41,582 nucleotides of DNA from NCBI GenBank assembly GCA_000996205.1, contig LBYO01000003.1, positions 1-41,582 of the forward strand. The letters run 5' to 3'. Position numbers and translations under genes: made by a program. The notes beneath the pieces are model-generated. The model was not told where the DNA came from, made no database searches, and saw only the letters and a list, made by a program, of their open reading frames with translations. This DNA is from Parcubacteria group bacterium GW2011_GWA1_40_21. GTDB taxonomy: Bacteria > Patescibacteriota > Minisyncoccia > Phycocordibacterales > GWA1-40-21. Shown in pieces: positions 2,165 to 4,237 of this stretch. The first letter of the stretch is position 1. Each line of letters starts with the position of its first letter.

Positions 2165-4237
2165 ATGTCTCCAAGAATTCCACACGAAATAATAGAGAGG
2201 TTAAACAAACTGAAAAAGACGATAGAACACCATCGCTATCTTTATCATGTCTTGGACAAGCAGGAAATTTCCGATGCGGCGCTTGATTCGCTCAAATATG
2301 AATTGGCAAAAATTGAAGAGGAATATCCCGAACTCATTACACCCGATTCGCCTTCGCAAAGAGTTGCCGGCGAGCCGCTTAAAGAATTTGAAAAAGTGAT
2401 TCATAAGGTCCCTCAATGGTCTCTCGGTGACGCTTTCACGGAAGAAGACATCTTGGAATTTGACGAGCGAGTCAAAAGGATGCTTGCGAAAGAGAAAGAA
2501 GCGAAAGAACCCCAACTTGGAGGTCTCGCCTCCAAGTTGGCCACTTGGAGGCGAGACCTCCAAGTGGAATATGTTTGCGAGCTTAAGATTGACGGGCTTA
2601 AAGTTGTTTTTCATTATGAAAATGGATTATTTGTCCGCGCGGTTACGCGCGGGGACGGGAAAGTGGGCGAAGATGTGACTAATAATATCAGGACAATAGA
2701 ATCGCTTCCTCTTAAGCTCACCGAGCCATTAAATATTATTCTTGAAGGAGAAGTGTGGATGAGCAAGAAAAATTTTGCCGAGCTCAATAAAGAGCGGGAG
2801 AAAAAAGACGAGCCTCTTTTTGCCAATCCCAGAAATGTGGCGGCCGGCTCAATCCGTCAGCTTGATCTGAAAATCGCCAAGGAAAGAAAGCTGGACTCGT
2901 TCATCTATGACATCGCTTACACAAACGGCAAGATGCCGGAAACTCAAATTGAGGAATTGGAATTTATCCAGCATCTCGGTTTCAAGGTAAATAAAAATTT
3001 TAAATTATGTCCGACTGTCGGCGAGGTGATTAAATATTGGAAAGAGTGGCAGAGGCGCGCCCCCAGAGAAGATTATCTGATTGACGGCGTTGTAATCAAG
3101 GTCAATGAACGAGAGTGCCAAGAAACTTTAGGTTATACCGGCAAATCGCCAAGATACGCAATCGCTTTCAAATTTCCGGCGGAACAGGTGACAACGGTCG
3201 TGGAAGATATCATCCTTCAAGTTGGCAGAACCGGCGTCATCACTCCCGTGGCGCATCTTCGTCCCGTATCTGTCGCCGGCTCGGTGGTTTCCAGAGCGAC
3301 ACTTCACAACGAAGACGAAATCAAACGGCTTGATGTGAGAGTGGGGGATACGGTGGTCTTGCAGAAAGCCGGAGATGTTATTCCTGATATTGTTTCTGTG
3401 GTGAAAGAGATGAGAACGGGGAAAGAAAAACCTTTTATGTTTCCGGAAAAGGTGGCGGCTTGTGGCAGTGGCGGCAGGATTGAAAAAATTCATGGACAAG
3501 TCGCTTATCGGTGCGTCAATAAAAACTCTTTTGCTCAACAGAGAAGAAAGCTCTATTATTTCGCCTCAAAAAAAGCTTTTGACATTGAAGGGCTTGGACC
3601 GAAAATAATTGACCAGCTTATGGAGAGCGGACTTATTTCTTCTTATGATGACATTTTTACTTTGAAAAAGGGCGACCTCTTGAATCTTCCAAGATTTGCC
3701 GAAAAGTCGGCTGACAATTTGATTTATTCGGTTGAAAAATCAAAGACCGTGACTTTGGTGCGTCTTCTCATCGCTCTCTCAATTCCTCAAGTTGGGGAAG
3801 AAACCGCGAACGATATTGCCAAGCATTTCAAAGATATAAAAAAAATTAAAAGCGCCTCGTTTGAGGAATTGGAAAAGATAGATGGCGTCGGTCCGATAGT
3901 AGCCAAATCCGTCCGTGATTGGTTTGACGATCCCCGCAATCGCCATAATCTGGAAAATCTTCTTAAACATATAAAAATAAAAAAAGTTGAAATATCAGCC
4001 TCGGGTATGTCCGGTTTTGTCGGGAAAACTTTCGTTCTTACTGGAACATTAAAATCAATGACCAGAGACGAAGCCAAAGAGCTCATCAGAAAAAACGGCG
4101 GGGAAATTTCCTCGTCCGTTTCCTCGCAAACCGATTATGTCGTGATAGGAGAAAACCCCGGGTCAAAATTTGATAAAGCGAAAGAGTTGAATGTGAAGAT
4201 TTTGACGGAGAGCGAGCTTGTAAAGATGCTGGAATAA
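2165..4237 (+). CDS. ligA: NAD-dependent DNA ligase LigA
   Basis: KIDGL adenylation motif, [20 protein letters not shown] fold, HhH region, C-terminal BRCT ([22 protein letters not shown]). Confidence 0.97.
2512..2567. repeat. Double-hairpin palindromic insertion inside ligA
   Basis: ccaacttggagg-tctcg-cctccaagttgg followed directly by ccacttggagg-cgaga-cctccaagtgg; loops are reverse complements. Confidence 0.9.

Follow-up and report, generated by a model that had tools for sequence, protein, structure and literature searches.

The ligA gene of this Patescibacteria genome carries, in frame, a double hairpin that is very probably a REPIN-like dimer of a REP-type palindrome, placed in the flexible LigA linker and belonging to a family served by Y1 transposases of the RAYT/TnpA_REP kind. 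The reading draws on the anatomy of the element, its dispersal, the association of the same palindrome with RAYT-like genes in related genomes, the recurrence of palindromes at the same site and the low predicted order of the linker. We refer to the whole stretch of DNA analyzed, 41,582 nucleotides long, as the window, and list the coordinates of the features in Table 1.

A double hairpin in frame in ligA

The LigA open reading frame passes the TIGR00575 profile with 769 bits (cut-off 444) and has the LigA domains. The gene is single-copy in the 760,931-bp genome, the sole other match being antisense and lying over the palindrome itself. Two tandem hairpins, 56 bases in all, together form one larger palindrome. 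The first reads CCAACTTGGAGG-TCTCG-CCTCCAAGTTGG and the second, which follows without a gap, CCACTTGGAGG-CGAGA-CCTCCAAGTGG; the two loops are mutual reverse complements, and the larger palindrome has a perfect 23-bp stem (2515-2565). The earlier note had described this double hairpin from the letters alone, and its coordinates, its reverse-complement loops and its reading frame within LigA all agree exactly with ours. Folded as single-stranded DNA the palindrome reaches -29.9 kcal/mol (z = -10 against shuffles), and folded as mRNA it has z = -8. There is no stop codon in any of its six frames.

As in a REPIN, where two inverted REPs form one larger hairpin, 2515-2565 holds two inverted cores. 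The second core is the exact reverse complement of the first, and both have an A (GGCGAGACC) that is missing from the other three genomic copies. Because of this complementarity and the common private base, the two are most simply explained as one inverted pair, and separate insertions of the two hairpins are unlikely.

Table 1. Features of the window discussed in the text
Feature	Position	Strand	Basis or remark
ligA, NAD-dependent DNA ligase, intact, 690 aa	2165..4237	+	ORF, profile, domains
REPIN-like double hairpin (REP dimer), in frame	2512..2567		encodes (P)+18 aa+(E)
First hairpin	2512..2540		12-bp stem, loop TCTCG; REP core 2517-2535
Second hairpin	2541..2567		11-bp stem, loop CGAGA; REP core 2545-2563
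Catalytic KIDG motif (Lys141), 3' of the insert	2585..2596	+	sequence; invariant in alignment
Intergenic TTGG-superfamily REP of another subfamily, TTGGACATCAGATGTCCAA	11491..11509		this type also surrounds the C5 RAYT-like gene
REP, AAATTCTGTGGGTATCTGATACCCACAGAATTT	22217..22249		its family flanks the C9 RAYT-like gene

The double hairpin encodes LigA residues ~116-134 and ends about six residues before the catalytic Lys141. The linker from the FDxRV helix to the ELKIDG motif measures 10-32 aa, with a mode of 15, in the 133 LigA genes compared across the order. At 32 aa, the linker of the window shares the greatest length with one other; without the 18-aa insert it would measure 14 aa, so that the dimer accounts for the excess. 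Most of these relatives, compared as the earlier note had proposed, have the linker without a palindrome. The note's statement that bacterial LigA has no comparable segment holds only with a qualification, given the range of linker lengths and the several other genes with different palindromes there. No gene among those read encodes the same peptide from non-palindromic DNA in a distant lineage, the case that the note had named as contrary to its proposal.

The linker before the catalytic lysine is predicted to be disordered. In the AlphaFold model, residues 115-130 have a pLDDT <50 and lie between a helix (93-114) and the strand (136-142) that carries Lys141. The run comprised 14 sequences and had a pTM of 0.44, and because this value is low we read only the local disorder from the model.

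Spread of the palindrome family

Of the core TTGGAGG-N5-CCTCCAA, this genome has five copies: two are in ligA, and miaA, an ORF on C6 and C9 have one each; four of the five lie within ORFs and one at an ORF edge. It was found in 22 of the 118 genomes searched, compared with two genomes, with a single match apiece, for a reversed control pattern. The congener G001 has no copy. The wider superfamily TTGG-NNNN-loop-NNNN-CCAA comprises 40 palindromes in this genome, compared with 1-6 in simulated genomes, and is thus repeated above chance. Simulation, dispersed copies and site enrichment exclude a chance origin of the ligA palindrome.

By their inner stems, the TTGG palindromes fall into subfamilies (ACAT, AAAC, AGGC, CGGT and AAGC) of 5-21 copies each, not hundreds. 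Besides ligA, they are inserted in frame in gatB (as a dimer), miaA, ung and the prepilin peptidase gene, as RPEs are in protein-coding genes. The reading frame differs between ligA and miaA, and the monomer measures 19-23 bp, not the ~150 bp with one conserved peptide of an RPE. The ends have the form (A)CTTGG...CCAAG(T). The GTAG/GTGG or CGTC foot tetranucleotide of canonical REPs is absent from the TTGG palindromes; GTGG/CCAC is present in the C9 palindrome family only. Nor did we find the high copy number and mostly extragenic location of REPs, with five copies here and 21 in the sister family.

Some palindromes of this genome (G000) are nested, with one copy apparently within the loop of another (C10:17981-18032 and C16:20877-20928). 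At several sites palindromy runs into the unique flanks (for instance, C9:5119-5164 and C2:43760-43803).

Other repeats were seen in the window. Directly 3' of ligA (4241-4350) lies a MITE-like inverted repeat of ~110 bp, CCTTGAATTACGAAACGC ... GCTTTTCGTAATTCAAGG, whose left-end motif has ~35 copies in the genome, another of them at window position 40922. Three consecutive prepilin-like ORFs (80-330, 844-1010 and 1502-1610) have repeated DNA upstream of the hydrophobic stretch, and two of them have the peptide LRLIGGRATTKNPTSSAGRLQPNRGF in common. A flavoprotein-like ORF (22248-23603, minus strand) contains an in-frame imperfect inverted repeat, GTCATCCCCACGCAGGCGGG...CCCGTCTTCACGGGGATGAC, encoding CHPHAGGNLDLINASLDPRLHGDDK, which is single-copy at the 15-mer level.

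Palindromes recur in the LigA linker

A perfect hairpin whose stem measures at least 8 bp lies in the linker of nine of these 133 LigA genes (those of the window, G001, G059, G092, G049, G244, G151, G101 and G169). A separate scan of genome contigs yielded nine LigA loci only. The palindromes are mostly unrelated in sequence. For instance, G001 has ACTTGGGAGCTCAACTCCCAAG, G059 has two copies of GCAGAGGTCAGACCTCTGC, and G092 has ATATAGGTCAGACCTATAT plus a near copy. Stems of at least 13 bp number five in the linker and three elsewhere in LigA, although the linker makes up 3.3% of the codons (p = 2e-6, uncorrected for kinship). Another cluster of hairpins lies near residues 610-616, preceding the BRCT domain. 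Two genomes, G001 and G059, have a RAYT-like gene flanked by the very palindrome that sits in their ligA linker. The ligA gene of G059 (L059) also has two more palindromes, AATATCGAAGTCTGACTTCGATATT in two copies, which match the palindrome of a second RAYT-like gene of that genome (L227).

The LigA linker is a variable site that unrelated palindromes have struck repeatedly across the order. Because close relatives hold different palindromes there, mobile DNA appears to have repeatedly rewritten this loop of an essential enzyme. The insertion site was not pristine: the sister species has a palindrome of its own there, and the linker varies across the order.

Association with Y1 transposases

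Many Y1 (PF01797) genes of the order are flanked by matching palindromes, which usually differ gene by gene. The same palindrome stands on both sides of 11 of 27 Y1 genes, which is not an unbiased rate, the genes tested coming mostly from genomes picked for a ligA palindrome; none of 300 control genes from the window's genome is flanked in this way. The flanking palindrome also occurs within the gene in 6 of the 27 and in one of the 300. The 27 were counted out of 36 loci, the nine left out being those where the ORF pattern missed the Y1 gene.

The ligA palindrome flanks a Y1 gene in G054, G112, G085 and G049, and none in this genome. In G054, an identical TTGGAGGCGAAGCCTCCAA stands on both flanks of the RAYT-like gene (L274) and twice in frame inside it, and the peptide QLGGLASK, read from the LigA insert, is also found inside the RAYT-like proteins of G112 (L276) and G085 (L277). 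All three proteins are above the Pfam Y1_Tnp cut-off; against the NCBIfam model REP_Tyr_transpos (NF047646), RAYT-like proteins scored 21.5 and 35.7 bits, below its cut-off of 80. In the congener G001 a Y1 gene lies directly downstream of ligA, and its palindrome, present in 21 copies in that genome, is found twice in frame in the Y1 gene, on its flanks and in the ligA linker.

Five RAYT-like proteins with TTGG palindromes (of G054, G001, G024 and two of G049) form one clade (100/99). This genome has two Y1 genes only (C5 and C9), with palindrome families other than that of ligA; the C5 RAYT has TTGG palindromes, yet falls outside the clade. A search of this genome turned up neither a remnant of a TTGG-clade RAYT nor, apart from C5 and C9, a candidate for the cognate RAYT. 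With the two Y1 genes tied to other palindromes and no remnant of the clade, the ligA element is thus an orphan here. Its cognate transposase may have been lost from this genome, may be missing from the assembly or may act from a related family.

Comparison of sites with the sister species

We compared 12 palindrome sites of G001, all non-RAYT, with this genome. Nine hold a TTGG palindrome of a different subfamily here, namely ligA, gatB, miaA and six sites outside these genes (two with decayed copies), and three, fmt and two others, are empty here. In miaA, where this genome has the AGGC type, the outer CCCCAACTTGG/CCAAGTTGGGA are conserved and only the inner 11 nt have changed. In gatB, the AAAC dimer of this genome faces a GAG dimer in the congener. 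The position of the site is exact to the base in miaA and approximate at several others, where only the same gap is occupied. The gatB dimer of this genome (C1:42981-43030) is a direct one of the AAAC type; in the sister gatB, roughly the same position is taken by an inverted dimer of that genome's palindrome type.

The nine switches of subfamily suggest that REP sequences have been overwritten in place inside core proteins. With one sister genome compared, the switched sites may reflect either such replacement or the choice of the same sites by successive families. Tentatively, and with more doubt than confidence, we propose that a RAYT/REP subfamily that newly becomes dominant may put its own palindrome in place of the inner stem-loops of older ones genome-wide, rewriting loops of core enzymes (ligA, gatB, miaA) in concert while frame and position are kept.

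Discussion

In the sequence of events that we favor, Y1 tyrosine transposases of the RAYT/TnpA_REP group would serve the palindrome family and move it as single-stranded hairpin DNA, and one dimer would have entered the flexible LigA linker or replaced an older dimer there. Tolerance of the insert would follow from three things: it lies in a disordered linker, its length preserves the reading frame, and none of its six frames contains a stop codon.

The earlier note had proposed that an RPE-like element inserted into an essential enzyme and stayed in frame. In substance this is borne out by the dispersed copies and by the relatives' linkers, most of which lack the element; a RAYT-associated, REP-like dimer describes it better. 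A selfish palindromic element of the Rickettsia type (RPE/WPE-like), with mobility unrelated to RAYTs, is improbable. It would account for in-frame insertions in core genes (ligA, gatB, miaA, ung and the prepilin peptidase gene), for a palindrome open in all six frames and for the lack of a cognate RAYT in this genome, but not for the fact that at least three other genomes have the same palindrome and peptide within and beside their Y1 transposase genes. RPE-1-type elements are moreover much longer, and the short RPE-4 and RPE-6 have themselves been classed as CGTC REPs (Di Nocera 2013, PMC3733652).

It is still less probable that the hairpin arose in place and is kept by selection as a functional mRNA or DNA structure regulating ligA. 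About 93% of the 133 LigA genes have no hairpin; those found there mostly show no sequence relationship to one another, dispersed copies lie in unrelated genes, and hairpins cluster in the pre-BRCT linker as well, which together outweigh the great stability of the RNA hairpin (z = -8) and the recurrence of hairpins at one position across different families. An artefact of assembly or chance is equally hard to credit. The genome, in 26 contigs, was apparently assembled from a metagenome, and chimeras classically can take the form of a perfect palindrome. Against this, the ligA ORF stays open between two conserved flanks, the sister species also has a palindrome at this ligA site, monomers are found elsewhere, and gatB and fmt of the sister contain dimers of the same architecture.

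The preferred reading, a RAYT-associated dimer, has clear precedents. Among intragenic REPs (GTAG/CGTC), dimers or groups that encode 20-30 aa account for over half of the inserts, and many lie in replication/repair genes, including the DNA ligase of O. terrae (Di Nocera et al. 2013, PMC3733652). Short palindromes within ORFs, as dimers and in repair genes including DNA ligase, are thus already known; here, by contrast, there is no GTAG/CGTC terminus, the palindrome is a symmetrical TTGG/CCAA one in a Patescibacteria host, and one LigA linker has been struck by different palindromes in several families. In RAYT/TnpA_REP systems with REPINs, the Y1 gene is flanked by inverted REPs, and REPs form inverted doublets (Nunvar 2010, PMC2817692; Bertels & Rainey 2011, PMC3116915); the transposase gene itself contains in-frame REPs in TnpA_REP subclass 2.4 (Quentin et al. 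2018, PMC6006769). Our palindromes likewise flank Y1 genes, sit in frame inside them and form inverted doublets, but they have no canonical foot tetranucleotide and a low copy number, the associated proteins fall short of the NCBIfam RAYT threshold, and this genome has no cognate RAYT. The ligA element therefore works like a REP/REPIN, yet is not to be filed as a canonical GTAG/CGTC REP.

In the REP 'orthoswitch', orthologous RAYTs have different flanking REP classes, and new classes may partly replace old ones (Nunvar 2013, PMC3686654); in our case it is the dispersed sites, some of them inside protein-coding genes, that hold one palindrome in this species and another in its sister. Rickettsia palindromic elements are ~150 bp long with a conserved peptide (review, PMC10969869). 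They too are in-frame palindromes in unrelated core genes, but ours have a 19-23 bp core, are read in several frames and are linked to Y1 transposases.

A literature search for palindromic elements or tyrosine transposases in CPR/Patescibacteria found no report, most subscription papers being outside its reach. The points of interest are the variant itself, the repeated targeting of LigA and the possible replacement in place. The route by which palindromes such as RPEs come to be read in frame within proteins is, to our knowledge, little understood. Here, in Patescibacteria, in-frame palindromes are tied to Y1 transposases that bear the identical in-frame peptide. The comparison of sister species offers a testable case of in-place REP replacement, and the LigA linker provides a natural series of differing insertions at one protein site.
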